DNA from: a virus
Direction: 5' to 3' (one strand)
DNA length: 64,000 bases
IMG/VR virus record: IMGVR_UViG_3300035670_000044
Coordinates: 1 to 64,000 of that record
The first letter of the stretch is position 1, and each line of letters starts with the position of its first letter. The notes under the pieces are model-generated. The model did no database searches and had not been told where the DNA came from. It was given only the letters and a program-made list of their open reading frames with translations. Of this stretch, positions 1 through 28,803 are shown one piece after another. The translations under genes were made by a program, and so were the position numbers.

Positions 1-138
1 GGTGAGGATGATCGGGAGGATGGAGCTGGCGGGGGTTTCCTGGTGGTTTTCTCGGTACTCCGAGATGTGGGAGATGATGGGGTCGAAGGAGGTGCCGCCG
101 CCGCCGATCAGGCGGAAGGATGTGGCAGTAGGTGAAAG
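1..138 (-). pseudogene. VWA-domain (DUF2201-like metallopeptidase) fragment
   Basis: Read on the minus strand, 138 down to 1 encodes SFRLIGGGGTSFDPIISHIS and runs on off the window. The GGGGTSFDP stretch is typical of the C-terminal VWA domain of DUF2201/COG3864 putative metallopeptidases. The frame is closed by a TAG at 141-139 immediately upstream, with no ATG, GTG or TTG between it and the conserved motif. The N-terminal half, including the MIDAS DxSxS region, is therefore missing. It may be a broken gene, a rearrangement junction, or a downstream exon, since this phage carries self-splicing introns. The family call is from the motif only. Confidence 0.45.
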
Positions 139-224: not shown

Positions 225-242
225 TCCCCTTAAGCTTTCAAC
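225..242 (-). promoter_or_regulatory. GTTGAAAGC late-type promoter, minus strand
   Basis: GTTGAAAGC is read on the minus strand from 242, followed by TTAAGGGG rather than a clean TAGA. It points toward the VWA fragment. It is weaker than the copies before virion genes. Confidence 0.35.
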
Positions 243-285
243 AAAGGGGGTATGATAATATGGTGAGGTATATGTTGGGATGGTA

Positions 286-483
286 ATGACCCCCGAAAGA
301 GTTAAAGAAATCTGTATACCTTACGGTCTTAAGTTAATGCCTCAGTGGCGATCGGACTCTTATATTGTTTATAATAAAACTGAGTACGGAGTGAGGTATG
401 CCTTTAAAGTAATCAAGGGTACGTCCGAGGAAGAGTTGGAGAGGATGGCGATTGCCTGGTCCTTGAAAAACTCGTTCCAGTAA
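286..483 (+). CDS. Small array paralogue 1 (YGL family)
   Basis: A 65-residue protein that opens a run of about 16 related small genes. It shows the family layout: an N-terminal helix ending in ICIPYGLKL, a variable beta-rich middle, and a C-terminal acidic helix EEELERMAIAWSLKNSF. I recognise no characterised family. A start at 280 (MVM) is also possible; 286 was chosen because it puts the family helix near the N terminus, as in the other copies. Function is unknown. Position at an early-promoter-driven end of the genome and fast divergence suggest a host-takeover or counter-defence role, which is inference. Confidence 0.6.
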   Translation: MTPERVKEICIPYGLKLMPQWRSDSYIVYNKTEYGVRYAFKVIKGTSEEELERMAIAWSLKNSFQ

Positions 484-513
484 GGGGTGGGCTATGTGCG
501 CCTAACGGCGCGA

Positions 514-538
514 GCCGGCCCGGCTTCGCCGGGACCGG
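514..538 (+). terminator. GC hairpin between array genes 1 and 2
   Basis: CCCGGC-TTC-GCCGGG at 519-533 is flanked by an outer CCGG/CCGG pair. There is no T-run, so it may be a weak terminator or an RNA stabiliser rather than a full intrinsic terminator. Confidence 0.35.
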
Positions 539-556
539 GAACGGATCGGGACGGGT

Positions 557-566
557 GTGCTAGGGT
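557..566 (+). promoter_or_regulatory. Host-type extended -10 promoter
   Basis: GTGCTAGGGT matches the extended -10 pattern TGnTAnnnT that recurs before early genes here. It sits just upstream of array gene 2, which would have a very short leader. Confidence 0.45.
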
Positions 567-569
567 GAT

Positions 570-809
570 GTGGTATACGTCGGTGAAGTGGTGGATTTAG
601 ACCAAGCCAGAGAAATCTGTGAACCTTACGGTCTTAGGGTCGAACGTGGGTATCCTTTTTCATTCATCTACTTCGAATATGTGGCTTATGGTCCTCATGA
701 CTTAGGAGGTACCTATTCCTTTCTCATTCACGAAGACATGTCTGCAGAAGAGTTAGATAAGCTAGCACTAACCTGGTCTATAGAAAACTCCTTTGCCCCG
801 TCAACCTGA
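570..809 (+). CDS. Small array paralogue 2 (YGL family)
   Basis: 79 residues with a GTG start. The helix QAREICEPYGLRV is followed by an aromatic-rich middle and the C-terminal helix AEELDKLALTWSIENSF. It is the copy most like paralogue 1 in its conserved ends. Later GTG codons at 585 and 588 are alternative starts. No known function. Confidence 0.6.
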   Translation: MVYVGEVVDLDQAREICEPYGLRVERGYPFSFIYFEYVAYGPHDLGGTYSFLIHEDMSAEELDKLALTWSIENSFAPST

Positions 810-813
810 AATC

Positions 814-1047
814 ATGCAACACTCCGACCTAAAAGAAATGTGCGGTAGGTATGGGTTACACGTATCATTGGATATGATGGGCATAAATTTAGCATACTCT
901 ATCAGGTATCCGGGTAGTGGAACCTGGACACTAGACGGGCCGCCACTCGCAACTATTACCACTACGGAGCTTTACGAGATGTCTGACAACGAGCTGGAAG
1001 AACTGGTGGTAGACTGCAGTGTGAGGTCGATGGAGGGGTTGTGCTAG
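814..1047 (+). CDS. Small array paralogue 3 (YGL family)
   Basis: 77 residues from the ATG at 814; the in-frame TTG at 793 would overlap the previous gene. It contains LKEMCGRYGLHV near the N terminus and DNELEELVVDCSVRSM near the C terminus. The stop codon lies inside the next GTGCTAGGGT promoter, so the protein ends in Cys-stop. Function unknown. Confidence 0.6.
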   Translation: MQHSDLKEMCGRYGLHVSLDMMGINLAYSIRYPGSGTWTLDGPPLATITTTELYEMSDNELEELVVDCSVRSMEGLC

Positions 1048-1050
1048 GGT
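1041..1050 (+). promoter_or_regulatory. Host-type extended -10 promoter embedded in a stop codon
   Basis: GTGCTAGGGT spans the TGC-TAG end of array gene 3 and precedes array gene 4 at 1074, giving a plausible leader of about 15-20 nt. Confidence 0.5.
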
Positions 1051-1073
1051 GGTAATAGTTTACCGGTGGGTCC

Positions 1074-1343
1074 ATGGCTTCTGAATCCAGGCTCAGGGAG
1101 GTTTGTAGGAGATACGGCTTAAGGGCAGGGTTATTACAGTACGGACGAGTTTTCGTTAGGTCCAATTCAAACTATAGCTATTTCATCGAGGAGTTGGATT
1201 GGCTATCTCTAACTGATGAGGAGTTAGAGGAAATAGCTGTCTCCTGGTCACTAAGGTTATCTTTTGAGGACAACCCGACTTACCATACTAATCTCTGTCA
1301 AGAAATTTTTTTACCCGATGGACCTAAAACCTGTACTCTTTAA
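1074..1343 (+). CDS. Small array paralogue 4 (YGL family)
   Basis: 89 residues. LREVCRRYGLRAG and DEELEEIAVSWSLRLSF mark the family ends. About 23 extra residues follow the usual C-terminal helix and overlap the next gene by 26 nt, which suggests a lost stop codon or read-through of the original end. No characterised relatives recognised. Confidence 0.6.
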   Translation: MASESRLREVCRRYGLRAGLLQYGRVFVRSNSNYSYFIEELDWLSLTDEELEEIAVSWSLRLSFEDNPTYHTNLCQEIFLPDGPKTCTL

Positions 1344-1542
1344 GTATAACTTACGTGTTGTTGTAAGTAACTCTCGCCACTATTTTTTCCCAAGAGATTG
1401 TGGATACTCCGACGATTGGTTATACTTTTTTGGGGAGAATTTGGGATGCCTACGCACGGATGAGCTACTGTCCATGTCGGATGAGGAGCTGGAGGAGTTT
1501 GCAGTCGGCTGCAGCATACGGTCCATGTGCCCGGAGTGCTAG
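1318..1542 (+). CDS. Small array paralogue 5 (YGL family)
   Basis: 74 residues from the ATG at 1318. The in-frame TTG at 1264 would lie deep in the previous gene. The N-terminal helix is reduced (MDLKPVLFKYNLRV), but the C-terminal DEELEEFAVGCSIRSM closely matches paralogue 3. It ends Cys-stop in a promoter, as paralogue 3 does. Function unknown. Confidence 0.55.
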   Translation: MDLKPVLFKYNLRVVVSNSRHYFFPRDCGYSDDWLYFFGENLGCLRTDELLSMSDEELEEFAVGCSIRSMCPEC

Positions 1543-1545
1543 GAT
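1536..1545 (+). promoter_or_regulatory. Host-type extended -10 promoter embedded in a stop codon
   Basis: GTGCTAGGAT overlaps the TGC-TAG stop of array gene 5 and leads into array gene 6. It has the same arrangement as the copy at 1041. Confidence 0.5.
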
Positions 1546-1566
1546 GGTGTGGAACTTGGGTTTAAA

Positions 1567-1797
1567 ATGGCCAGTATAGAGGAAGTTAGAAAGGCTTGCG
1601 AGACTCACGGGTTGACAGTGAGTTGGAGAATGTCCCTCTACTGGGCAGTATTTCGACCTATGACAGGGGGCACAATCTTTCTTTTCAATCCCTGGGACGT
1701 GGTAGACCCTGAATTGGCCGCCATGGAGTGGTCCGTGGAAGAAATTTTTACAGATCCCGAGAGCAGGGTTTTCCCTAAGATTTGGAAACCATCATGA
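1567..1797 (+). CDS. Small array paralogue 6 (YGL family)
   Basis: 76 residues from the ATG at 1567; a GTG at 1549 is possible. VRKACETHGLTVSW replaces the usual YGL with HGL, and the C-terminal helix is ELAAMEWSVEEIF followed by a short tail. The stop overlaps the next start (ATGA), indicating translational coupling. Confidence 0.6.
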   Translation: MASIEEVRKACETHGLTVSWRMSLYWAVFRPMTGGTIFLFNPWDVVDPELAAMEWSVEEIFTDPESRVFPKIWKPS

Positions 1798-2012
1798 CCC
1801 TCCGTATCGACCAAAAGGAGGAACTTATTCGGGAGCTGTGCGAGCAATACGGGTTATCGTTTATGTACACTTGGGGGAGGTATTACATCTCAGTGAATGG
1901 TAAAGAGGAGTCGTGGATTATTGATTTTACCCGGGTGGATCTGTCCTTGTGGGACTCTGATCAGATTGAGGAAAAAGTGTTAAGCTTGGTTCTGAGGTAC
2001 GGGTTGTGGTGA
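1794..2012 (+). CDS. Small array paralogue 7 (YGL family)
   Basis: 72 residues. The start shares ATGA with the previous stop. IRELCEQYGLSFMY is the family helix and QIEEKVLSLVLRYGLW the C-terminal helix. The stop is fused to the next start as TGATG. Function unknown. Confidence 0.6.
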   Translation: MTLRIDQKEELIRELCEQYGLSFMYTWGRYYISVNGKEESWIIDFTRVDLSLWDSDQIEEKVLSLVLRYGLW

Positions 2013-2281
2013 TGGACAATTGTCGTCTAAACTGTATGTGCGTGAGCAGTAGGGCTTTGGCTCACGATATCGCATACGAGTACGGATTATTGTTTGAGTT
2101 TACGCGCCAGAAGGCATCGGATAAATGTACGGGGCTGGTAGTAAGTGCGTATAGGGGGGGCATTTCCCTGGATACTAAGCTTGAAACCCTCTCGGCTGAA
2201 CAATTCAATGCGATGACAATACACGAACTGAGAGAAATGTGCGAGTATTGGAAAATGCTGAAGGTATTTAGCTGTGGCTGA
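2012..2281 (+). CDS. Small array paralogue 8 (YGL family)
   Basis: 89 residues from the ATG at 2012, sharing its A with the previous stop. AHDIAYEYGLLFEF is the family helix; the C-terminal helix HELREMCEYWKMLKVF is more diverged. Overlaps the start of the next, frameshifted, copy. Confidence 0.55.
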   Translation: MDNCRLNCMCVSSRALAHDIAYEYGLLFEFTRQKASDKCTGLVVSAYRGGISLDTKLETLSAEQFNAMTIHELREMCEYWKMLKVFSCG

Positions 2282-2502
2282 TTTAAACCCATTTGAGAAA
2301 GTAATTAGTGTCCTGGTTTCGGTCCCGGGGGTGGAATGGGACATCGTTGATTATGAACTCCCCGGGGGCAAAATTTTTGTATTGGTGTAAAGGTAATTAT
2401 GATAAGATAGAATGCCTCTCGGAGGCAGATGCTCTGATTTTGACAAGTAATGAACTGGAAATACTCTCCTTGGAGTTGACGTTCGGATCGAATCGGGTAT
2501 GA
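2274..2502 (+). pseudogene. Small array paralogue 9, frameshifted
   Basis: A GTG at 2274 opens a frame reading NPFEKVISVLVSVPGVEWD, which aligns with FSRIIEVLDSVPGVHHD in the copy at 2740. It stops at a TAA soon after an AAAATTTTT tract near 2370. The C-terminal family half, ending LTSNELEILSLELTFG, continues in the +1 frame to 2502. One base lost or gained in the G5 or A4T5 tract would explain it; recoding or a sequencing error are alternatives. Written as a broken gene. Confidence 0.5.
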
Positions 2503-2747
2503 TGAGTAAACTGTCAATTTTCAGAGCCATGTACCAAAGATTTTACGAGTTCACAAGGCTCTTAGATAACCTGGGAGTGGCCTGGGGATTCTATCCCTCT
2601 GAAGAATGGGAAAGTTTGAAAGATTACTGCGTCTGGGTCGGCAAACACGGGGTCAACGGAAACCACTACGGGGTTGGTGAAATTGACTCAATGTCCGATG
2701 AGGAGTTTACTTACTTAACCCTGGAGCTTACCTTCACCCATGAGTAA
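2499..2747 (+). CDS. Small array paralogue 10
   Basis: 82 residues, start overlapping the previous stop (ATGATG). It belongs to a second sub-branch with LLDNLGVAWGFY in place of the CxxYGL helix and DEEFTYLTLELTF at the C terminus. Tightly coupled to the next gene through an 8-nt overlap. Function unknown. Confidence 0.6.
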   Translation: MMSKLSIFRAMYQRFYEFTRLLDNLGVAWGFYPSEEWESLKDYCVWVGKHGVNGNHYGVGEIDSMSDEEFTYLTLELTFTHE

Positions 2748-2973
2748 CAGACACGATTCTTTCTCCAGAATAATCGAGGTCCTGGACTCTGTCCCGGGGG
2801 TACATCACGACTTCACGGTTCAACCTTTCATTCCACTCTGTGTTGATCTGGTGTTCTGGAGGATGAGCTCCACGGGCACTATATACACAGTGGTGACTGA
2901 AAAGCAAGCCGAGGAGATCACCGACGAGGAGCTGGCCAGTCTGGCTATCGAGTTGACTTTCGGCCAGGGTTAG
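2740..2973 (+). CDS. Small array paralogue 11
   Basis: 77 residues, sub-branch with IIEVLDSVPGVHHDF and DEELASLAIELTFGQG. It is the intact counterpart of the frameshifted copy at 2274. Starts inside the end of paralogue 10. Confidence 0.6.
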   Translation: MSNRHDSFSRIIEVLDSVPGVHHDFTVQPFIPLCVDLVFWRMSSTGTIYTVVTEKQAEEITDEELASLAIELTFGQG

Positions 2974-3002
2974 GGTAAAATCGGGACTGGTCAGAGAAGA
3001 AC

Positions 3003-3206
3003 GTGACACGTCCATCCAAAGACAAGATTGACACCGTCAAAAAGTTGTGCTCGGGGTACGGTTTTGAGGCGATACCCGGTCACTTTTTCTTCTACCTTCG
3101 TTCCGAAGGTAGACGCATAGTAGGTTACCTGGATTACCAGTACAATGACTGGAATCAAATGGAAGAGATCATTGCTGAACTGGCCGTTAGAGGGGCGTTT
3201 AAGTAA
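3003..3206 (+). CDS. Small array paralogue 12 (YGL family)
   Basis: 67 residues, GTG start preceded by GAGAAG. It returns to the YGF/YGL type with VKKLCSGYGFEAIPG and the C-terminal helix EEIIAELAVRGAFK. The stop is fused to the next start as TAATG. Confidence 0.6.
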   Translation: MTRPSKDKIDTVKKLCSGYGFEAIPGHFFFYLRSEGRRIVGYLDYQYNDWNQMEEIIAELAVRGAFK

Positions 3207-3466
3207 TGAACTGGATGTACCAGAGGGGGTTAGTTTGGGAAGAGACTACGCGTCAGTTAGATAGTGTTTGTGACCGTTTGGGTCTTAGATGGTACTGCAA
3301 GATAAGCACTGCCGAGGTGATATTTCACCGGTCAAACCCTGTTGAGCATAATCTCGCGGTGTGTTTTGGAAGCCCGGATTACAGTATAATGAGGGAATCA
3401 GCAATGTGGATGACCAGTAGTCAGATAGAAAGTATCCTTAGAGGGTGGTTGGATCATGGGGTTTAA
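3206..3466 (+). CDS. Small array paralogue 13 (YGL family)
   Basis: 86 residues. QLDSVCDRLGLRWYCK is recognisable as the family helix, and the C-terminal end QIESILRGWLDHGV is diverged. Overlaps the next gene by 11 nt. Function unknown. Confidence 0.55.
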   Translation: MNWMYQRGLVWEETTRQLDSVCDRLGLRWYCKISTAEVIFHRSNPVEHNLAVCFGSPDYSIMRESAMWMTSSQIESILRGWLDHGV

Positions 3467-3722
3467 TCAAAATAGGTTAACACGATGGGTGTGGCGAATC
3501 ATGCCCACGGCCCTTCGCTACTATTTTCTGGAAAAGTTGTGCGAGAGAAACAGTTGTACAATATTCAAAAGCGAGCGCAGAAGATACGAACACGAAGTTG
3601 ACGTATGGTATATATCTGGGGGGGACATTGTGGGGTATGTCGGATCGATAAACCCCTTCGACGACTGGGAAAACATCGAGAAGTCTGTGCTAGAATACTC
3701 CGTAATCAGTACTTTTAGGTAG
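3456..3722 (+). CDS. Small array paralogue 14
   Basis: 88 residues, start inside the end of paralogue 13; an internal ATG at 3501 is an alternative. EKLCERNSCTIF is a degenerate family helix and WENIEKSVLEYSVISTF resembles the C-terminal helix of paralogue 12. A promoter-like GTGCTAGAAT lies in its 3' end. Confidence 0.55.
   Translation: MGFNQNRLTRWVWRIMPTALRYYFLEKLCERNSCTIFKSERRRYEHEVDVWYISGGDIVGYVGSINPFDDWENIEKSVLEYSVISTFR
3687..3696 (+). promoter_or_regulatory. Host-type extended -10 promoter
   Basis: GTGCTAGAAT lies inside the end of array gene 14 and would drive array genes 15 and 16. Confidence 0.45.
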
Positions 3723-3967
3723 TGGGAGACGGTGATATCGGCAACTACGACCGGTTGCGCGAATTGTGCAAAGAGTATGGGCTAGTGGCTATCCGGGATG
3801 ATAATTCGGCAAAGTGGGTGTTGGGGACATTAGCCCCTGGCTCGGACTGGGAGTATGTTCGGGTCGCTCAGGTGTCAGACATGGACTTGCACTACACGCC
3901 GTGGAGACTAGTAGAAAAACGCACCGTTACGGCCATTCTGGATCGGAGTTTTACCGAACATGTTTAA
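3722..3967 (+). CDS. Small array paralogue 15 (YGL family)
   Basis: 81 residues, GTG start sharing the G of the previous TAG. LRELCKEYGLVAIRD is a near-consensus family helix. The C-terminal helix is replaced by LVEKRTVTAILDRSFTEHV. Overlaps the next gene by 8 nt. Confidence 0.55.
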   Translation: MGDGDIGNYDRLRELCKEYGLVAIRDDNSAKWVLGTLAPGSDWEYVRVAQVSDMDLHYTPWRLVEKRTVTAILDRSFTEHV

Positions 3968-4205
3968 TTGGGAGGACTGGGTATTCCGGTCGGTATATAA
4001 ACATTCCCCACTGCCCAACCCCCGGGTTGCCCAGGAGTGCGAGAAATATGGCATGCGGGCAGTCTTCGACAGGAGTAGCCGAAGGTATCTGATCGGTAGC
4101 GGAGACACCCTGTACGGGTCAGTCGGTGACAGGCTTAGCGAGACGGACCTGGAAGACGCCATCGCCGAGTTATTTGTCACCGGGCCGTTCAGAAGTATCC
4201 CATAA
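3960..4205 (+). CDS. Small array paralogue 16 (YGL family), end of array
   Basis: 81 residues. AQECEKYGMRAVFD is the family helix and DLEDAIAELFVTGPF the C-terminal helix, close to paralogue 12. Last copy; its 3' end overlaps the convergent minus-strand gene by 36 nt. Confidence 0.55.
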   Translation: MFNWEDWVFRSVYKHSPLPNPRVAQECEKYGMRAVFDRSSRRYLIGSGDTLYGSVGDRLSETDLEDAIAELFVTGPFRSIP

Positions 4206-4358
4206 CCAATTCGGTAGCAAACCCCCCACCGCCCCATCGAGTTGTCGCACCAGCAAGCGCCCTAGCCGGATCGCTATGGGCTTTACCACCACCTCAGCCA
4301 GCATTACTCCGGCGAATGAAGCCAGGGCCGTATGGACGTCGGATACAACCGGTGTCAC
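4170..4358 (-). CDS. Small membrane-like protein, unknown
   Basis: 62 residues, GTG start overlapping the previous stop (GTGA). The N-terminal half ALASFAGVMLAEVVV is hydrophobic enough for a short membrane segment. Convergent with the paralogue array. No family recognised; short length and overlap with a + strand gene lower the confidence. Confidence 0.4.
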   Translation of the reverse strand: MTPVVSDVHTALASFAGVMLAEVVVKPIAIRLGRLLVRQLDGAVGGLLPNWLWDTSERPGDK

Positions 4359-4567
4359 TTGACCAGGCCGGCAGGTGCGTGGCAGTCCGTAAGCCTGTAT
4401 ATGAGCTCGTAGCCCGGCTCTAGGGATCGGTGGCTCTTAGGGCGTGTAGGAAGGGCTAGCAGGTCCTCGTACACGTCGGTACGGGTCGTATACACAACAA
4501 CCTCGGCGGCGTCGTAGTCGTACGAGATAGCGGTTTCGGCGTAAAGCTCGGGTGCGGGAGTCTCCAT
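4355..4567 (-). CDS. Hypothetical acidic small protein
   Basis: 70 residues, ATG start with AGGGG just upstream. Acidic and tyrosine-rich N terminus, translationally coupled to the gene at 4170-4358. A GTGAAAGC element upstream is a one-base variant of the late promoter. Function unknown. Confidence 0.45.
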   Translation of the reverse strand: METPAPELYAETAISYDYDAAEVVVYTTRTDVYEDLLALPTRPKSHRSLEPGYELIYRLTDCHAPAGLVK

Positions 4568-4715
4568 CCCCTGCTTTCACCGGATTCGCCCCGCCCCCGT
4601 ATCACCACCTGGATTGTGTCAAAACAGCCCCTTAGCCAAACCCAAAGGAAAAGTCCCCGCAACCTCCCATACGCCCATTATTAATCTTTACTAAATAAAA
4701 AGGATATATATATAC

Positions 4716-4961
4716 ATGGGTTTAGGGGGAGCGGCGACTTGGGTGAGGGTTGATTTCTGGGAAAATTTCAACCCAGTCATAGCAAGCGATCTGGGGGAAG
4801 CATTTTACCCAGACACCCGATACAGGGGGTTGTCTCACGCTCTACCTGGGGGGGGCGAGATTTTCTATCAAAACACCCCAAAGAAAACTACGACCGATTG
4901 GGGTCAGAATTTTGAGAATTCCGGGGTAAACCGGCCCGCTAGCGATATAAAAAAGTCTTAA
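4716..4961 (+). CDS. Possible small protein, unknown
   Basis: 81-residue open frame with AAGGA 13 nt upstream of its ATG and aromatic-rich content (RVDFWENFNPV). Codon composition differs from neighbours and nothing is recognisable. It may be chance in a G-rich spacer. Confidence 0.25.
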   Translation: MGLGGAATWVRVDFWENFNPVIASDLGEAFYPDTRYRGLSHALPGGGEIFYQNTPKKTTTDWGQNFENSGVNRPASDIKKS

Positions 4962-5243
4962 CCTCAGTTAGGTCATCTTTGGGATACAGATGATGGTCAA
5001 ATTGGGGTCTAAAGGTGGGGTAAATATCCATGTTTTGATACTAAATTTCACTTTTTGATAATTATAATGTTTTGCTACCAGCCCCATTTTCCGACCATTT
5101 CCCCAAACCCCTTGCACCATGGTGTATTTCAGCCATCTGACCCCCCTGCTGGGTTTGGGGTCTCCTCATGCCGTCTGTTTGCGTTTAATTGAGAAAAAAA
5201 ATCCCCCACAGGTTTTGGTGATAGCTTATCAGAGGGGGTTATC

Positions 5244-5253
5244 GTGCTATACT
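5244..5253 (+). promoter_or_regulatory. Host-type extended -10 promoter
   Basis: GTGCTATACT lies about 30 nt before the 368-residue gene, the best -10 match of the class (TATACT). The palindrome GATAGCTTATC just upstream could be an operator. Confidence 0.55.
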
Positions 5254-5284
5254 GACCCCGGAGCCATTTTTCTATCATTTCACT

Positions 5285-6391
5285 ATGACCCTGCCCAGAC
5301 ACGCCAAACAGATTTTTGATGAGCCCTACCCCAGCATCACCTGGCTCAGATCCATGACCAAGGAGAATTTGCTCCTGGCCCTTCTGGAGATGAAACGAAC
5401 GTACTCCGAGGATTCGATGAGGGTGAAGGAGATGGAGCACACCCTGGCGATGGCCGAGATCGACATTAGAAAGCTCGAGCTTCAGTCCAAGCTGGAGGCC
5501 ACCAACAAAATGATCCAGTACGGGGTAGAGATCAAAGAGCACCAGTATGGACCTAAGGCCATCGGTGACTTTGCATCGATCTGGAACGGGGAGAGCGTTA
5601 AGAACACAGTCAAACCCCTTTCCGACTCCGACCTCTCCGAGCGGGCTAACTTGGCCGAGGAGCAGGGGATTGTCTGGAACCTGCAGAACAAACGACCGGG
5701 GCGGGAGTCTACTATCCGAAAGAAAGTGGAGGAGTGGGAGAAAGGATTGGATCGAGGGTTGAATGCCAACCTCACTATCTACGCTGCCAGAAGTGCGGAG
5801 GCGATCAGGTCATCAGGATCGGATTACCGGGCCTTTATGACTGGCCTATGTATGCAAATGGAGCAGCGGTTGGGTAAGGGACCTCAGCACAAGTACCTAG
5901 TGCCGAGGTTCAAGAATATATCCAAACAGTACCGTCAGACACTGCCGGTCGTACAAGACCCGCCTGAGGCTGCCAAACCCGCCGAGGATACGTCTCGATC
6001 CGTTATCGAGCTCATTTACACCGAGTGGCTTGGCAAAGGTTACAAGCAGGAGCTCAGGGACTTTGATGACCGCGAGGGCACTTTCTCCCAGGAGCAGTTC
6101 TCCAACTACCTGGAGAAACACGCCGAAATTCTACGCAATCTCGACCCAGACGAAAGCGTCCGAGACCTTAAATTTTCGTCCCGAGTACTCTGGGACACAT
6201 TCCAAAGATCAACATATCACCTCATCAAAGACCGTATCGACTGGCACATCCCCTGCAGGAGGAGCGAAGAGCTTTGCATGTTCAGAGATGTGTACCAGGA
6301 GTATAAAAAGGTCGAGGAATCCCGCAAGGCGTACAACGAAATGATGCACGCCTGGTGGATTCAAATGTGCGACAGGTTGGGGTTGAAGTAG
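5285..6391 (+). CDS. Hypothetical protein with N-terminal coiled coil
   Basis: 368 residues, ATG start shortly after a promoter. Residues about 35-85 are a charged amphipathic helix likely to form a coiled coil; the C-terminal two thirds are mixed helical with a Trp- and Cys-containing end (HAWWIQMCDRLGLK). No signal peptide or membrane segment. No domain recognised. Stands alone between a spacer and a strong convergent terminator, so it is its own transcription unit and probably early. Confidence 0.75.
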   Translation: MTLPRHAKQIFDEPYPSITWLRSMTKENLLLALLEMKRTYSEDSMRVKEMEHTLAMAEIDIRKLELQSKLEATNKMIQYGVEIKEHQYGPKAIGDFASIWNGESVKNTVKPLSDSDLSERANLAEEQGIVWNLQNKRPGRESTIRKKVEEWEKGLDRGLNANLTIYAARSAEAIRSSGSDYRAFMTGLCMQMEQRLGKGPQHKYLVPRFKNISKQYRQTLPVVQDPPEAAKPAEDTSRSVIELIYTEWLGKGYKQELRDFDDREGTFSQEQFSNYLEKHAEILRNLDPDESVRDLKFSSRVLWDTFQRSTYHLIKDRIDWHIPCRRSEELCMFRDVYQEYKKVEESRKAYNEMMHAWWIQMCDRLGLK

Positions 6392-6430: not shown

Positions 6431-7867
6431 CTAATCACCAATCCCCCTGACCGCCATCTCAGCAATTACCTCCGGTTCAATTTTTCCGGAGACGGTCGGA
6501 ACCTTCCGATCCACACTCTCATCACAGAAATAGTAATCAGGGTTGTACTCAGTACCGTTACTCTTCGAGATCTTAATGGTAGGAAAATTGTCCAGGTATG
6601 ACAATTTGCATAGGGGTTCCAAGCCAGACTTAAACAGGTCTTCGTTAATACGGTGGAACCTGCTAAGCACTTGGGACTCCAGAGTCCCCTCGACAGTTTT
6701 TCCATACCACTCCCTCCAGATTATTCCGCTAGAGAGAAAGAACATAAACGCCCTGTCATCCTCCAGTTCCAGAAGCTTCTTGCACATCCCGAGCCTGCTA
6801 GTAATCGTCTTATAGACTTTTTCAAGCTCAATTTGACATTTATACGGGCCGAAGTCACGGTCAAGTCCTGTCCGTGAGATGTCTCGGTACAAAGCGGACA
6901 AATCGAGATCGTCTAGGGTCTGAATCTTGGAGATATTCCTGGAAGCAATTACCGTCCAGAGTAAGTCGGACAAGTAGTAGCTAAAGTCACTGCTACCTAA
7001 GTTAACCCTATTGGACCACCCATACTTCCGATTGTTTCGAGAAGTTTGGGCTCGAGCTCTGATTACGTCATGGGCAAGGAAGTCCCTGTATAGGGCAGCG
7101 TACGCGTCAAGACAATCATCAGATTGCAGATCAGGATCACCCTTAACCGATTTGATTACGTCCCGTACGTTTGAAGGACGGTTAACGTAAATAAACCGGT
7201 AGAGTAACTGGTAATCCGGTACAGAAGTTTTCACAAACTTCGCATACTGTCCCTTCGGAGTGTAGTACTGGCAAGGGGCAGGAGACTTGGATAGAGCCTT
7301 AGTAACCTGGGAGTCGTTGATCAGGTCGTGGGCCCTAAAGGATATCAGAAGGGGAAGCCTGAAATAGACTAAATTACCCGAAATGATTTTCTTTACATTA
7401 GCCTTTACATCAACATCTTTGAGCTCACGAGAAAGTTCTGCTCCGCTTAGAGTAGTCCAGATGGTCTCCAAAATCTTGGCACTGCAAAGATTAGGGGACG
7501 TTAGCAGAGCCCTAGACGTATTGATTCGGTTACCGCTCTTGTTGCTGATAGTGTGTAATTTGGAGGTTTTGCAGAATAGCTGCGGGTCTGAGTAAGCATC
7601 GTAGATTTGCTTAACGAACTTGTCCTCATTAAATAGATTCAACAACTCAAAGCTGGGGTTGGCTATCACCTCCTTGAGGTAAAGGCGAGCCGCCATGCAC
7701 ATGGTGGTTGAATCACAATTCGGATTGGAGGCTACTGCTTTCCTGACCCTGGTGGATTTAGTGGAGTCCCAGGCATCCCTCAACTGTTTTTGCGTGGAGG
7801 AGGGATCGATCGCGATCCGGTACAGGTCTTCCACCCCCATCGACGGATTACTTACGGTTGCTTCCAT
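6431..7867 (-). CDS. LRV-type repeat protein, unknown function
   Basis: 478 residues from the ATG at 7867; the longer frame upstream is a shadow of the zinc-binding gene. Residues about 10-90 carry units such as VRKAVASNPNC and KEVIANPSFELL, typical of leucine-rich-repeat-variant (LRV) alpha solenoids. The remaining 390 residues are helical with no recognised motif. Cotranscribed with the zinc protein, overlapping it by 20 nt. Likely a protein-binding scaffold; target unknown. Confidence 0.7.
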   Translation of the reverse strand: MEATVSNPSMGVEDLYRIAIDPSSTQKQLRDAWDSTKSTRVRKAVASNPNCDSTTMCMAARLYLKEVIANPSFELLNLFNEDKFVKQIYDAYSDPQLFCKTSKLHTISNKSGNRINTSRALLTSPNLCSAKILETIWTTLSGAELSRELKDVDVKANVKKIISGNLVYFRLPLLISFRAHDLINDSQVTKALSKSPAPCQYYTPKGQYAKFVKTSVPDYQLLYRFIYVNRPSNVRDVIKSVKGDPDLQSDDCLDAYAALYRDFLAHDVIRARAQTSRNNRKYGWSNRVNLGSSDFSYYLSDLLWTVIASRNISKIQTLDDLDLSALYRDISRTGLDRDFGPYKCQIELEKVYKTITSRLGMCKKLLELEDDRAFMFFLSSGIIWREWYGKTVEGTLESQVLSRFHRINEDLFKSGLEPLCKLSYLDNFPTIKISKSNGTEYNPDYYFCDESVDRKVPTVSGKIEPEVIAEMAVRGIGD

Positions 7868-8123
7868 TTTTCTGACGACGACGATGGGTTGAAGAGGTGG
7901 CGATGCGTTCGGTGATATCGCACCAGAGTTCATTTGAGCACTCATAGCTGCAGCAGTACTCGGCGGAGTAGAGAGACTTGTAACTGGTTCGTTTACCACA
8001 TACACCGCAGTACCCGTGGGATTCCTGCTTGTGGTAGGTATCGTCGTGGACTTGGATAAACGGGTCGTGGGGGCCGAAATAGGATTTTCGGGCCTGGTTC
8101 GGACTGGACTTGGGGTCAGCCAT
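7848..8123 (-). CDS. Small zinc-binding protein
   Basis: 91 residues. A CxxC pair (CGVCGKRT) followed by YCCSYECS forms a likely treble-clef or zinc-ribbon site at about residues 38-63; the C terminus is basic. Start ATG at 8123, 27 nt downstream of a good minus-strand -10. Overlaps the LRV gene in another frame. It may bind nucleic acid or host RNA polymerase, but that is only inferred from size and zinc motif. Confidence 0.65.
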   Translation of the reverse strand: MADPKSSPNQARKSYFGPHDPFIQVHDDTYHKQESHGYCGVCGKRTSYKSLYSAEYCCSYECSNELWCDITERIATSSTHRRRQKNGSNRK

Positions 8124-8221: not shown

Positions 8222-8593
8222 ATGAAGCAAATCAGACGGTATCCCGAGATTTTTGTTGAGGCCGATTACCTCACCGTCCGTGACGACCTGATTCGGGGAG
8301 TCATCAAGGTCCGGTCTGACACGTACAAGGTCATTTTGGACCACCCTGTATTCGGCATGACCATCGAGATTATGGAACTAGATCCGGAGGATAACACCCT
8401 GTGCCTACGGAGCATTTTCCCTACAGAAATGCAGAGCGAGGAGGAGATGGAGTCGGTAAAGGACTACTATAGGTATTTGCTAGACGGTGAAGACACCTAT
8501 ATCGATTACTACAATCCGGAGTTTGGTTACTTTCTCCTGAGCCGGAACATCGGAATGTATCCGGCCAGCACCTACTCCCGAGAAAATGACTAA
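8222..8593 (+). CDS. Hypothetical acidic protein
   Basis: 123 residues starting at ATG 8222, just after the composite promoter; the upstream GTG at 8126 would precede the promoter. Strongly acidic C-terminal half rich in Tyr. The end overlaps the topoisomerase start (8586) in another frame, indicating coupling. No family recognised. Confidence 0.65.
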   Translation: MKQIRRYPEIFVEADYLTVRDDLIRGVIKVRSDTYKVILDHPVFGMTIEIMELDPEDNTLCLRSIFPTEMQSEEEMESVKDYYRYLLDGEDTYIDYYNPEFGYFLLSRNIGMYPASTYSREND

Positions 8594-10604
8594 TACCCCT
8601 CAACCCGTATCAATTTTATCAGAGCTGTCAACGGACTTTTTGGCGTATTCAACTGCCATCTTCAATCGGTCTTTACCGGATGTAGTAGACGGTTTGAAGG
8701 TGGCTCAGCGCCGCGTGCTCCTGTCTTTGCACGATCTGCACCTGAAACCGGGTTCGGGTTACTGCAAGGTCACCCGGGTTGAAGGACACACGTTGGGCTC
8801 ATATCACCCCCAGGGAGGGTGTGCCGGAACCATAATCAACCTGGGCCAGGAGAGCTCTTTGCGTTACACTCTGACAGAGATCCATGGGAACGCCGGGGGC
8901 TCCATCCAGACCGGAAACTACATCGGTCAAATGGTCTCCGATGACTCACCCGCCGCCCCCAGGTACCTGGAAGTACGTGCTACCCCCTTCTGCCAAAAAC
9001 TGTACCTGGACGAGATCCGGAAGGGGTTGGGGGAATGGCGGGAAAACTACGATGGCACCAACACCGAACCTATCCGAATCGTTCCGTCTCTACCCGCTCT
9101 GCTTCTCACCGGGTCTGTAGGGATCGCAAGCGGATACGCATGCAACCACATCCCGTGGAACTTGCGGGATGTGGTAAGCGCTACCACAGCTCTTATCAAA
9201 AACCCGAAGATAACCGACGCAGCTCTGGCTTCAAAGTTCTCCAATCCCCCCGAGCCACCTGCTGGCGGTCGAGTGGTTCGTGACGAGGGGGTCCGGTCAG
9301 CTTTACTGACCGGGAAAGGACAAGTTGTGGTGTACGGGAGCTGGGAGTTGGAAGACTCCCTTTCGTGGGGAAAACGGTCCACCAGGGCAGCCATCATCGT
9401 AACCCGGCTCGCTTCGGGCTCTAGTGAGAAATTTCTAGGACGAGTCAGGGAGTTGGCTGATGCCGAGAAATTGCCCGGGCTACTGGACGCTGCTGATTAC
9501 TCGAGTCGGGACGGGATCCGGATCGTCCTGGTGGCAAAGACTGTGGAGGACCGAAACAGGTTGCTGGGCACGTTAATTCACAATGGGACCGGACTCCGGC
9601 ACACCCACAGCGTTAACGCTACTGCAGTGGGGTGCGACGGAAAACCCAGGACTGTGGGTGTTCGTGAATCCATCCGGACATGGTACGAATCTCGGGTTGC
9701 TTACCTAATAGAGTCGAATAAGTCCGCTGTCAATCTCCTTCGCACTGATACTGACCGTTTACAGGCCACACTAGCTATTTTAAAAGACCTGGACAAGTTC
9801 CTCAAAACTGTAAGATCGGCAAAGGATAAACCTGACGCTGTTGTCAAAGTCTCCGGGATTTGGAAAATCTCTCCTGATCTCGCTAGATACGTAATCGGTA
9901 TCCCTGTCTCAACCCTGATCTCTACGGAGGAGCAGGACATCCTTAATCGTCACACCAAACTATCAGGGGAGATCGATAACCTCACCAAGTTGTGTACCCT
10001 CGGTCCCGCCCTGGACGCGCATATCTGTTCCGAGATTGCTTCCCTGAGGGGTCTGTGCGGCCCGGCAAGGGCTGTTTGGATGGAGGATGATGTACCGACT
10101 CAACAACAGCCGGTAAGGGCCCTTACAGAGCGGGATAGGATGGTTGTAGAGGCTAAATCCCTGGGCATTAGTTCTAAGGTGGTGAACCAGTGGATACGGG
10201 ATAATACCGGGTCCGGGAAACTCTCTGAGAAATGGTCTGAGTACAAGCTCGAGCATCTGCATCGCTTGCAAATGACCACGCGAGAGGGCAAAAAACAACG
10301 CAAGCTGGAGCTGGATAAAATCCGTGCCGAGGCGGAAAAGAAAGGTCTTCCTCGTCGAGGTCAATACGCCTGGAATGCTTTTATTTCCACATGCCCTACT
10401 TCCCGTATCGATGTAATACGTGCTAGGGTTGGTGAGTGGCTATCAAAGCTGCCTAAACCCACTTCATCACGTGCCCAATCCGATCCAGGTAAATCTAAGC
10501 CCTCAACACCTCGAGCTAGCGGAAGTAGAGGCTCAAAGAAGACAGGGGAGCAACGAGTCAGCGGGGTTGAGGGGGAGAAACCGAGCTCCGGCAAGGGGAA
10601 ATAA
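8586..10604 (+). CDS. Type IIA DNA topoisomerase subunit A (GyrA/ParC/gp52-like)
   Basis: 672 residues. The DNA breakage-rejoining subunit: RSLPDVVDGLKVAQRRVL near residue 29, GSYHPQGG near 71-78, and AAPRYLEVR with the catalytic tyrosine at about residue 127. It forms a transient covalent bond to the cut strand to pass another duplex, relieving replication supercoils. The GyrA beta-pinwheel domain is absent; instead there is a helical arm and a 45-residue Ser/Pro/Lys-rich disordered tail, as in phage or ParC-type enzymes. The ATPase (B) subunit is not in the window, so it is either elsewhere or borrowed from the host. Coupled to the preceding gene. Confidence 0.92.
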   Translation: MTNTPQPVSILSELSTDFLAYSTAIFNRSLPDVVDGLKVAQRRVLLSLHDLHLKPGSGYCKVTRVEGHTLGSYHPQGGCAGTIINLGQESSLRYTLTEIHGNAGGSIQTGNYIGQMVSDDSPAAPRYLEVRATPFCQKLYLDEIRKGLGEWRENYDGTNTEPIRIVPSLPALLLTGSVGIASGYACNHIPWNLRDVVSATTALIKNPKITDAALASKFSNPPEPPAGGRVVRDEGVRSALLTGKGQVVVYGSWELEDSLSWGKRSTRAAIIVTRLASGSSEKFLGRVRELADAEKLPGLLDAADYSSRDGIRIVLVAKTVEDRNRLLGTLIHNGTGLRHTHSVNATAVGCDGKPRTVGVRESIRTWYESRVAYLIESNKSAVNLLRTDTDRLQATLAILKDLDKFLKTVRSAKDKPDAVVKVSGIWKISPDLARYVIGIPVSTLISTEEQDILNRHTKLSGEIDNLTKLCTLGPALDAHICSEIASLRGLCGPARAVWMEDDVPTQQQPVRALTERDRMVVEAKSLGISSKVVNQWIRDNTGSGKLSEKWSEYKLEHLHRLQMTTREGKKQRKLELDKIRAEAEKKGLPRRGQYAWNAFISTCPTSRIDVIRARVGEWLSKLPKPTSSRAQSDPGKSKPSTPRASGSRGSKKTGEQRVSGVEGEKPSSGKGK

Positions 10605-11463: not shown

Positions 11464-11847
11464 ATGAACCCTTGGGACGAGCTAGAGCAACGCTTTTTGA
11501 GGTTTACTACTACTGTGAAGGAGATGGTCGACTCTATTATGTTGTCCGTAGATGACGATAGGGTGTCGGCAGAGATTGCGGACAATGTCTCTAACCTGGC
11601 TGTCGGACTTAAGCAGTACGTTATCACTTGCGAGGATGAAATTTCCAATGCAATGGAGTCCAAAATTGCGCATGACTACTCCAAGAATCCGTTCCAACAG
11701 ACCACCGGGGTACTTGCAATCGATGAGGATTACACTGTTCAGCTACCTCAGTACGTTATCGACCTGCTGGGATGGAAACCCGGAGACAATTTACAGTGGG
11801 AGATAGGGAGTGATAACACAGCAACCATCAGAAACCTGGATAAATGA
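11464..11847 (+). CDS. AbrB/SpoVT-like C-terminal domain protein
   Basis: 127 residues. The N-terminal 75 residues are an acidic helical region. The C-terminal 45 (YTVQLPQYVIDLLGWKPGDN then WEIGSDNTATIRN) match the swapped-hairpin AbrB/MazE fold. Such domains bind DNA as dimers, so a regulator is likely, possibly of this operon. Overlaps the bilin reductase start by 38 nt. Confidence 0.6.
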   Translation: MNPWDELEQRFLRFTTTVKEMVDSIMLSVDDDRVSAEIADNVSNLAVGLKQYVITCEDEISNAMESKIAHDYSKNPFQQTTGVLAIDEDYTVQLPQYVIDLLGWKPGDNLQWEIGSDNTATIRNLDK

Positions 11848-12445
11848 GGTCTTGGGAACGGATTGGGTGACGGAATCCCGTGCAAACGGGCCTGTTACCC
11901 TCCGATCCAGGAGTTTTTCAGACCAGTCCAGGGGGGTATGGCTCTCCCGCGAGTGCGTTTTGGACGTACCTGGGAAGTTTTTTGCTGAAACTTTGTTGGT
12001 TTACCCTTATACCGATGAAATTTTCCCTATTTTCGGATCTGAGTACATCGGTATGGGGAGGGGATGCTTCGGAGCGGTCGATTTTCACCCCGTACAGGCC
12101 GAAAACAACCTGATACCGGCTATTTTCGACTGTTTCCCCCCCCGAATTGTCTCCCAATCGCCCCACTATGACCTCGATCGGCACTTTTCCCCCGTCTTGT
12201 GGCATCACAAGTCCCCAGATGACTTCTATGGGGAGTTTGCGGACGTGGCCAGCACACGTCTACGCCACTATCTGAGGGTTTTGACTCCCAGTACGCCCCC
12301 CGAACCGGGGAGATTTTCCCCATTCGACACCTACATGGCCCTCAACGACCCGGCTCGCGGTATACTGAAAGCTTACTTTGGTGCCGAGTTCTCCGATGAC
12401 TACATCAGACGCTTCCTCTTCCCGCACTGTCGATGTGACAGTTGA
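11810..12445 (+). CDS. Ferredoxin-dependent bilin reductase (PebS/PebA/PcyA family)
   Basis: 211 residues. These enzymes reduce biliverdin with electrons from host ferredoxin to make phycobilin chromophores. Diagnostic features are FGAVDFHPVQ near residue 87, matching the MDFQP-type core strand, and the C-terminal block YMALNDPARGILKAYFGAEF, which mirrors the NAERDPAHGLFTAYFGKEW-type block of phycoerythrobilin synthases, with its conserved Asp present. Slightly shorter than usual (about 230), mainly at the N terminus; the GTG start is the only one retaining the leading helix. Product (phycoerythrobilin, phycocyanobilin or other) cannot be told from sequence alone. Strong sign of a cyanobacterial host. 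Confidence 0.85.
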   Translation: MITQQPSETWINEVLGTDWVTESRANGPVTLRSRSFSDQSRGVWLSRECVLDVPGKFFAETLLVYPYTDEIFPIFGSEYIGMGRGCFGAVDFHPVQAENNLIPAIFDCFPPRIVSQSPHYDLDRHFSPVLWHHKSPDDFYGEFADVASTRLRHYLRVLTPSTPPEPGRFSPFDTYMALNDPARGILKAYFGAEFSDDYIRRFLFPHCRCDS

Positions 12446-26249: not shown

Positions 26250-28803
26250 TTAGACATTAGTTGAAACAGGATTCAGGAAGAGGGCGCCAGCGCCAACTCG
26301 ACCAGTTTCACCCATGCCAACGAGCTCAAAAGAGCGCTCGACAAGGATGTCGCCTTCGAAAACACGACGGTCCATATTGAAGCGCTCGGGGGTAGAGATC
26401 GGATAGCCAGACAGCGTATAGGTATACGCAAATGCCGGGGTACCGTAGTTAGCATCCAGAGCGGGGGTAAAACCGTCAGTGCTGTTGCTAGGATGGTAGA
26501 ACATAATAGCAACGTTGTTGTAGACGTTCTCCAGAGCACCAGTTTCCTGGTTCAGCTTGAGACGGCGAGCAACGCGAATCTCGTCGAGACCAAAGATCTC
26601 AGCGAGGCTCTTCTCGTTCACCAAAATACCGCGCTGCATGAAGTCACGGATTCGTTTGTTCAGTGTTGTTACCGTAGAGGCTCTTTATCCTCTACTTCTG
26701 CATGTTACCATGCAGCTCAGACTATATCATCACCGAGAAAAATTATTATTCTCGGGCTGGGCGCTCGTGGACAGGTTATTGTTGGGACTCACTGTCTAGT
26801 CGTTGAACCTTTCGGAGGAACTAAGCCCGCCTCCGGCTTGGCTTCTGATTGCCCCGTAGAACGGGGGTTTCCAGAAATTCACCCAGTTTTCTAGCATTAA
26901 GACAAGCAGCACCCTATTACTCTCCAACCCTTGTGTTGGAAATGTTTATCAGGGTGGTTTATTAGGTTACAAATAGCAGATTTGGTCAAACCGTAATTTT
27001 TTACGTCTGACAGATAAATTTGTACTTGGTTACCATTGGGGTCTAAAAATAGGTATTTTCTTTCCCCCTCTCGTCTATAGCCGTTCTTTTTCCTATCTTG
27101 AAAGGCCTTGAACCTTCTCAGTCTTCCCTCTTCAGTAACTTTTCTCTTCGAAAAGCTATGAATCATTCTTTCTTTGAACTTAGGGTCAGACCATCTCTCT
27201 TTGGACTGTTGTCCTATGAGATTTTTTGTACTATCAGATCTAACTTTGCCTACATTTTTACCGATATTTCCTTGCCTGATGTTTTTTACAGCATCTTGGG
27301 TATGTTTATACCCTTTGGAGAAGCTACACCCGCCCTTGGTAGCGATGCTCTTATTGGCAAAACTAGGGTTAATGTCAACTCTCAGTGACTTATGTAAAAA
27401 ATATTCAAACTCAGACGCCTTTTTTCTCGTATCAAAAAGGCACAAAATGTGCTTTTCTTTCGGCATAAAGGTCTCGTCGGTAGAACTACCCATGTAGGGG
27501 TCCTCCCATGGATTTTCATGGGACCTACACCCAATGTAGTGTCTGTTATCTTCACCAACTACATCATACACGTAGTGGATGTAGTCAGAGTCAGATCTTT
27601 TCAGGTTCATGGCTGTTCAGGGAAAATCTATTGGCTTATCTAGGCGCTACTATTTTAACGCTTAAGGTTGTTGAACGCATCGGGAGACAGAACGAGCTTG
27701 TTAGGATAGCAGCCGATTTGGCCACGAACCTGCTCCTTCATCTCGTCAAACAGCACTTCGACGTCAGAGGTCGGGCTGTTAAACTGGTCAGCACCACCGT
27801 TGTAGGTAGCCAGGTCCAGAACGTTGCCGGATTCGTATTGGGTTACGTCCAGAATTTTCTGGCTGACTTGGATCTCCCAACTCTGCATGAGGCGGTTAGC
27901 AGCATCCTTAGCGGCATATGCGCGAAGGTCAATGGCGGCGGCGCCATTTTTTGCTTCTGCGGCCACTTCTTCAGCAATCTGCCAGCTAATGGCTTCTTGG
28001 CGAAGAGCAAAGCTCCGGGTACCGAATTCATTAGAGATCTTCTGAATGTTGGTACCAGGTGCACGCAGGAAGGACTGAGCGGCGAATGCCTCTTTGCCGA
28101 ACACCAGGCTGCGGCCAGCCCTGACGCTCATAGAGACGGCAGGGGCGAAGAAGGTAGCAACACCTTCTGTATTCTTGTACAAATTGTTAACGCGAGGGTA
28201 TTTAACCTCTCGCTTCTTACACTTTCATGTAAGTTCGGACTATATCTTCGGCCCAATGGGCCGGAGGGCGCTCGTGGAGAAATCATTACCCGGTCTGGGT
28301 AGTTCCTCTAGTCTCTGAACCTTCTGTTCCGTTCCCGAAACAGCTTGGCTGCTGATTGCCTTAGGGAACGTGTTCCCCTTAGGTTTCCCAGCAATTCACC
28401 CCCTAATCATACCACGAATTACTCCGAGGCACGGCTACAAAATTAACCTTGTGCGAGTTGCGTGAGGATCGGATCGATCACCAAAGTGTTTCACTGGGCG
28501 TTTTAATTCCCAGCTCTCCAACTTTCGTGTGAACAGCGATTGTTGTTGTTAAATTGTCGAGGTTCACGAGCCCTAAGGCTCTGGAGTATCGGACTATATC
28601 ATCACGGAACTATCACCGTGTCGGGCGCTCGTGGACAGGTTATTGTTGGGACTCACTGTCTAGTCTCTGAACGTTACTGGGAACCTGAGCCCTCCCAGTC
28701 TTCGCTGCTGATTGCCGTATCGAAATAATCCGAGTTAGGTTTCCAGCAATTCACCCGATTTTAAAGGCGCGAATCAGTCACGCACTTGATCTAAATTCAT
28801 CAT
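26250..28803 (-). CDS. Major capsid protein, split by three group I introns
   Basis: Four exons on the minus strand: 28803-28780 (MMNLDQVR), about 28481-28446 (VIDPILTQLAQG), 28179-27658, and 26660-26250; about 330 residues after splicing. Joined, the start reads DPILTQLAQG-YKNTEGVATF, the conserved opening of this capsid family, then SLVFGKEAF...LRAPGTN. Every junction keeps frame, follows a U and ends the intron with G. The third exon joins the fourth as NNLKR-NKRIRDFMQRG. The exon 1/2 junction is the least certain; an alternative (exon 1 to 28784, exon 2 from 28491) would give QVNTLVIDP. Shell-forming protein of the head; terminator right after. Confidence 0.8.
26661..27657 (-). mobile_element. 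Group I intron C with homing endonuclease gene
   Basis: 997 nt. Core elements on the minus strand: GTTCAACGACTAG (26808-26796) and GATGATATAGTCT (26732-26719), the two sides of P7. Preceding exon ends GCGT and the intron has GCGC 12 nt in as the likely guide. The core stretch ACTAGACAGTGAGTCCC is nearly identical to that of intron A, so the two share recent ancestry. It hosts the GIY-YIG gene. Confidence 0.85.
26897..27610 (-). CDS. Intron-encoded GIY-YIG homing endonuclease
   Basis: 237 residues. YIHYVYDVV...HYIGCRS is the GIY-YIG core at the N terminus; the middle has NUMOD3-like repeats (DAVKNIRQGNIGKNVGK, TKNLIGQQSKERW) and the C terminus a NUMOD1-like helix-turn-helix (LSDVKNYGLTKSAICNLIN). 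Cleaves intronless capsid alleles to spread the intron. Entirely inside intron C. AT-rich relative to the capsid exons. Confidence 0.85.
   Translation of the reverse strand: MNLKRSDSDYIHYVYDVVGEDNRHYIGCRSHENPWEDPYMGSSTDETFMPKEKHILCLFDTRKKASEFEYFLHKSLRVDINPSFANKSIATKGGCSFSKGYKHTQDAVKNIRQGNIGKNVGKVRSDSTKNLIGQQSKERWSDPKFKERMIHSFSKRKVTEEGRLRRFKAFQDRKKNGYRREGERKYLFLDPNGNQVQIYLSDVKNYGLTKSAICNLINHPDKHFQHKGWRVIGCCLS
28180..28445 (-). ncRNA. Group I intron B in the capsid gene
   Basis: 266 nt. Contains the exact canonical strings GTTCAGAGACTAG (28320-28308) and AAGATATAGTCC (28248-28237). The exon ends AGGT; GCCT 15 nt into the intron can pair with it as P1. Ends in G before TAC AAG. No open reading frame. 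Its P7 region matches T4-type introns better than introns A and C do. Confidence 0.85.
28482..28779 (-). ncRNA. Group I intron A in the capsid gene
   Basis: About 298 nt, after only eight codons of the capsid gene. GTTCAGAGACTAG (28672-28660) and GATATAGTCC (28600-28591) form P7; the core is nearly identical to intron C. The exon ends GCGT and GCGC lies 10 nt in. Ends at TTTG before GTG ATC; the 3' site is inferred from frame and could shift by a few nt. No reading frame. Confidence 0.75.

Follow-up and report, generated by a model that had tools for sequence, protein, structure and literature searches.

A tandem array of small, diverging genes beside an apparent inverted repeat in an uncultured relative of cyanomyophages S-TIM5 and S-TIM54, with a possible role in counter-defence

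We analysed a stretch of phage DNA, hereafter the window, that comprises the first 64,000 bases of virus record G000 (127,396 bp). Close to its left end, at positions 280-4205, the ORF listing gives 16 consecutive small genes on the plus strand, 15 intact (65-89 codons each) and one frameshifted, which bears out the tandem array of about 16 genes proposed in an earlier note on this DNA. Sequence comparison with the same locus in related phages leaves gene birth and death within the array well supported. Tentatively, at somewhat less than an even chance, we read the array as a diversifying set of small host-interaction proteins, directed most likely against effectors or toxins of host defence.

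Direct reading indicated that about 10 of the 15 junctions within the array overlap, by 1-26 nt (ATGA, TGATG, TAATG and TAGTG types), in keeping with the earlier description of mostly coupled or overlapping genes, and the non-overlapping junctions leave gaps of 4-86 nt. Ahead of the genes lies a leader (226..249, plus strand) containing CTCCCCTTAAGCTTTCAAC, which is common to the relative G006 and could form a hairpin (CCCCTT/AAGGGG) whose stability in the window is not above that of shuffled sequences. The first member, m01 (286..483, with an alternative start at 280), is separated from m02 (570..809) by a gap that holds a GC-rich hairpin-forming element (515..549, plus strand), at least 27 bases of which are identical in G006. 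The G006 copy (L103:6785-6817) lies ahead of the first array member, and G006 was the sole match in an exact search of viral contigs. Next come m03 (814..1047), m04 (1074..1343), whose C-terminal extension overlaps m05 (1318..1542), m06 (1567..1797), m07 (1794..2012), m08 (2012..2281), m09 (2274..2502), m10 (2499..2747), m11 (2740..2973), m12 (3003..3206), m13 (3206..3466), m14 (3456..3722), m15 (3722..3967) and m16 (3960..4205). The frameshifted copy is m09, with one part (2274-2390) in frame 3 and the other (2305-2502) in frame 1. A programmed frameshift was set aside in favour of decay or an assembly error, because the shift falls among homopolymer runs. Within G000 the family is confined to the array locus.

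Leave-one-out HMMs were built for the array genes from the remaining members plus two related arrays, and 414 sequences were ranked. Twelve of the 16 genes (m01-m07 and m12-m16) ranked first, with E values from 4e-11 to 8e-3 at a database size of 1000. Both m10 and m11 also ranked first, with E values that were not significant, and the small gene m08 ranked third, its placement in the family not being reached. The all-against-all comparison that the earlier note had proposed connects most members by BLAST: m01 pairs with m02 (E 2e-13), m05 has m03 as its nearest relative (8e-9), and m09, m10 and m11 join one another (2e-4 to 7e-4) as a separate second branch, so that at least two sub-branches are present as had been described. 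The N-terminal C..YGL motif described in the earlier note, widened to C..[YH]G[LMFV], is carried by nine members and by not one of 413 decoy ORFs. Mutual recognition and motif enrichment of the array genes are far above chance. Many members are acidic (pI 4.2-5.3); a DNA-mimic reading of these was dropped because m01, m12 and m14 are near neutral or basic.

Searches of the family against Pfam, NCBIfam, PHROGs, PADLOC and PDB sequences gave no convincing match. The profile searches returned a few weak matches to single members only (best E 0.013), and PDB matches to the N-terminal motif (Ku70 and others) were rejected as short and limited to one helix. Phage records gave no convincing match to m15 or to one G019 member. 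A scan of viral contigs with m02 as a single protein found no relative; an alignment of m15 found none among genome contigs and, among viral contigs, only G006, G031 and G033. The broad family alignment, A6, was too diverse for scanning.

Across roughly 90% of its length, the tail sheath encoded by G000 shares 54-56% identity with those of S-TIM54 and S-TIM5; for the topoisomerase the figure is about 43%, and three flanking genes are ordered as in these phages. Sheath, topoisomerase and left-end gene order agree on a TIM5-like phage, one that is uncultured and related to the cyanomyophages S-TIM5 and S-TIM54 (genus Aurunvirus). A gene for a ferredoxin-dependent bilin reductase (PF05996; window 11810-12445) fits a cyanobacterial host.

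Two convergent small genes follow the array on the minus strand, one with a hydrophobic stretch (4170..4358), conserved at the same place in relatives, and one (4355..4567) conserved in several relatives. Beyond them are a flanking gene of 368 aa (5285..6391, plus strand) and an anchor gene of 524 aa (6431..8005, minus strand), both syntenic in S-TIM5 and all relatives, and a further syntenic anchor, the gene for topoisomerase IV/gyrase subunit A (8586..10604, plus strand). A long stretch before the 368-aa gene (4570-5284) is without a clear gene, and its equivalent in G033/G031 (L091:548-961; L092:557-958) is full of short repeats; this stretch could be a replication or packaging site. Farther into the window, three group I introns lie inside about 2.1 kb on the minus strand (26698-28789).

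The window opens at the boundary of an apparent inverted repeat. Positions 1..127 (minus strand), which fall in the C-terminal half of a VWA-like gene, are an exact reverse complement of the final 127 bases of the record (G000:127,270-127,396). A De Bruijn assembler run with k=127 leaves a 127-base overlap at a repeat boundary, and this exact overlap suggests that the 127-kb segment runs into one and the same inverted repeat at either end. At the right end of the record the VWA-like gene comes after a MoxR-like ATPase. A GIY-YIG homing endonuclease-like gene, recognized by inspection (G000:125,440-126,216; L102:13441-14217, minus strand), sits between the two; the Rfam search found no intron there and no group I intron near the array or the VWA-like gene.

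Inverted matches were also seen in the related phages. In S-TIM5 (JQ245707.2), the first 90 bases recur as their reverse complement at 161,513-161,602, and the last 60 nt do so at 167,178-167,237. In S-TIM54 (OP053362.1) the inverted pairs are 1-37 with 167,915-167,951 and the last 98 nt with 174,260-174,357. S-TIM5 and S-TIM54 further differ by the inversion of a 5-kb block, and S-TIM61 has the gene order of S-TIM54. These sequence records suggest a map in which two inverted repeat copies flank a small unique segment, which is unusual for a tailed phage. In G000, G001, G006 and G018, about 130-290 bp separate the start of the array from the boundary. For this lineage we rejected a natural genome end at the record start because G006 runs about 6 kb further and the ends of G000 overlap as inverted copies.

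Using the flanking genes as anchors, we located the syntenic loci in uncultured relatives. The array has at least 14 genes in G001 (L002:402-4212), 8 in G006 (L103:6831-8848), 19 in G018 and 15 in G019; the G030 locus (L064) holds at least three array-type genes, and G031 and G033 have one m15-like gene each. S-TIM5 and S-TIM54, although like G000 in flanking gene order, in sheath and topoisomerase and in the inverted signature at the record ends, are without an array, and only 0.7-0.85 kb lie between the record start and their flanking gene. Of the eight genes in G006, six find their best match among the window members, with 35-75% identity and in nearly the same order (n1 matches m06 best, n5 matches m13 and n8 matches m16; n3 and m07 are 56% identical), and the genes adjoining the two arrays are 57-64% identical. 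The most conserved member is m15, with 75% identity in G006. G006 has a second group of small paralogous genes to the left of its array (L103:3090-5163, minus strand), adjoining an AAA ATPase-like gene; two members of the group end in the similar sequence RKLHKLE[WR]LFG.

The G018 and G019 arrays look unlike that of the window in sequence, and hhalign comparison with the window family was not significant. A weak rank enrichment was seen. A Phe near the C-terminus was found in 57 of 75 array genes versus 12 of 52 background ORFs, a count that takes orthologues and paralogues separately and so makes the p-value optimistic. Position, layout and this Phe suggest that the G018 and G019 arrays are homologous to the window family; alternatively, these 19- and 15-gene arrays may be non-homologous to it.

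Turnover takes several forms in the relatives. In G001, a unit of about 530 bp spanning two genes is duplicated (80-94% identity), and gene fragments are left between array genes. G018 holds two copies of one gene 2 kb apart (81-86% identity), and one of the copies is a chimera whose last 55 nt match a third gene at 95%. Comparing G018 with G019, five genes are found only in the former and one only in the latter, and three of their 14 orthologous pairs have a dS of 0.43-2.4 while the others are near 0.05, which points to replacement by recombination. The birth-and-death expansion that the earlier note had inferred is well supported by differing syntenic arrays, duplicated units, relics, a chimera, the frameshifted copy and differences in gene presence.

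For the other eleven G018/G019 array pairs, the pooled dN/dS was 0.82, compared to 0.13 for nine flanking genes (p 6e-16). The array value is not different from 1 and, coming from one close pair of relatives, may not hold for the window's own array. The 134 substitutions in the G018/G019 array include no stop, where neutrality predicts 6.2 (p 0.002). Each of the five indels is a multiple of three, and changes in the last 20 residues affect 3.7% of sites versus about 10.5% elsewhere. The lack of stops, the in-frame indels and the C-terminal conservation indicate that the genes are kept as proteins with fast-changing N-terminal and middle parts. The selection for diversity inferred in the earlier note is plausible, but the pooled dN/dS is not above 1.

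We infer that the array products face host defences and have a counter-defence role; PADLOC and the other profile databases searched gave no match between array members and known counter-defence families. In the mechanism that we propose, the array, placed at the edge of the apparent inverted repeat and at one end of a large unique segment, is probably expressed as one translationally coupled transcript. As documented in the relatives, copies are born by duplication of single genes or pairs, trade parts, diverge fast and decay, which leaves related phages with different gene sets at one spot. Each protein would adopt a short alpha-beta fold, perhaps of an alpha-beta-beta-beta-alpha, dsRBD-like topology, with a C-terminal helix that may be kept for folding or for a common partner and with N-terminal and middle parts that would vary to bind different host proteins. 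Since the likely targets are defence effectors or toxins, the array would then serve as a store of small inhibitors acting stoichiometrically.

There are two main rivals to this proposal. Under the first, which we regard as unlikely but still to be reckoned with, the members are early host-takeover factors that bind core machinery of the host (RNA polymerase, ribosome, nucleases, photosystem) and redirect it, as SPO1-like takeover genes do, and their diversification tracks host species rather than defences. Small, mostly soluble-looking proteins from a coupled cluster near a genome end would suit such factors, and diversification is also compatible with a change in host range; however, the conservation of core machines makes 8-19 fast-changing paralogues per genome a less expected outcome.

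The second, to which we give a lower probability, is that a recombination-prone repeat boundary yields duplicated and shuffled small genes under weak selection, most copies having little function. A dN/dS near 1, the relics, the frameshifted copy and the chimera, and the position of the array beside the repeat boundary are all consistent with such a nursery. Counting against it are the 134 substitutions without a stop, the five in-frame indels and the conserved C-termini, and the retention of m15, both in G006 and in lineages where it is the single copy.

We consider it improbable that the proteins block co-infecting relatives (superinfection exclusion or an immunity-like function) and diversify with competitors; fast diversification and turnover suit any arms race, but the members look, by inspection, small and soluble, without an export or membrane segment, and no cognate target gene was found. 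Most improbable of all is that they are variable copies of a virion protein or of a structural accessory; nothing specific favours this beyond the fact that tail genes also diversify, and against it stand a location away from the sheath and capsid genes and no match to a virion family.

A set of inhibitors directed at host defences, as favoured here, has a partial parallel in T4, where tifA encodes a ToxN inhibitor and is amplified under toxIN selection (PMC9391042), and TifA acts through binding ToxN and RNA (PMC10853763). Like the array, tifA is a small phage gene multiplied in tandem through recombination; what it encodes is a small protein that inhibits a defence toxin. The tifA copies are recent, identical and laboratory-selected, whereas the cyanophage copies are diverged, and no sequence relation is claimed; the tifA amplification serves as a laboratory model of the first step in the mechanism proposed above.

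The host-takeover modules of SPO1-type phages resemble the array as clusters of small genes near a genome end, but their genes are mostly unrelated to one another and lie in direct terminal repeats, whereas the cyanophage genes are paralogues beside an apparent inverted repeat. In poxviruses and African swine fever virus, terminal multigene families consist of tandem diverged paralogues near an inverted repeat and vary in copy number between relatives, and in these respects the array would be like them. The viruses and proteins are unrelated, without homology, and the cyanophage inverted repeat is an apparent one, deduced from sequence records. More doubtful than the counter-defence role itself is the wider idea that TIM5-like genomes are quadripartite, two inverted repeat copies separating a large from a small unique segment, the latter in either orientation, and that recombination at the repeat boundary drives a diversifying counter-defence multigene family. 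If true, tailed phages would have arrived independently at a counterpart to the poxvirus and African swine fever virus families just described.

Whatever its function, the array family is undescribed in the databases searched. If our reading is correct, this phage lineage would reserve one site in its genome for producing and trying out small inhibitors, and each such locus would offer many natural variants. The array would then be a source of candidates for counter-defence proteins of a new kind in cyanobacteria, and it could serve as a model of how viral gene families arise beside inverted repeats.
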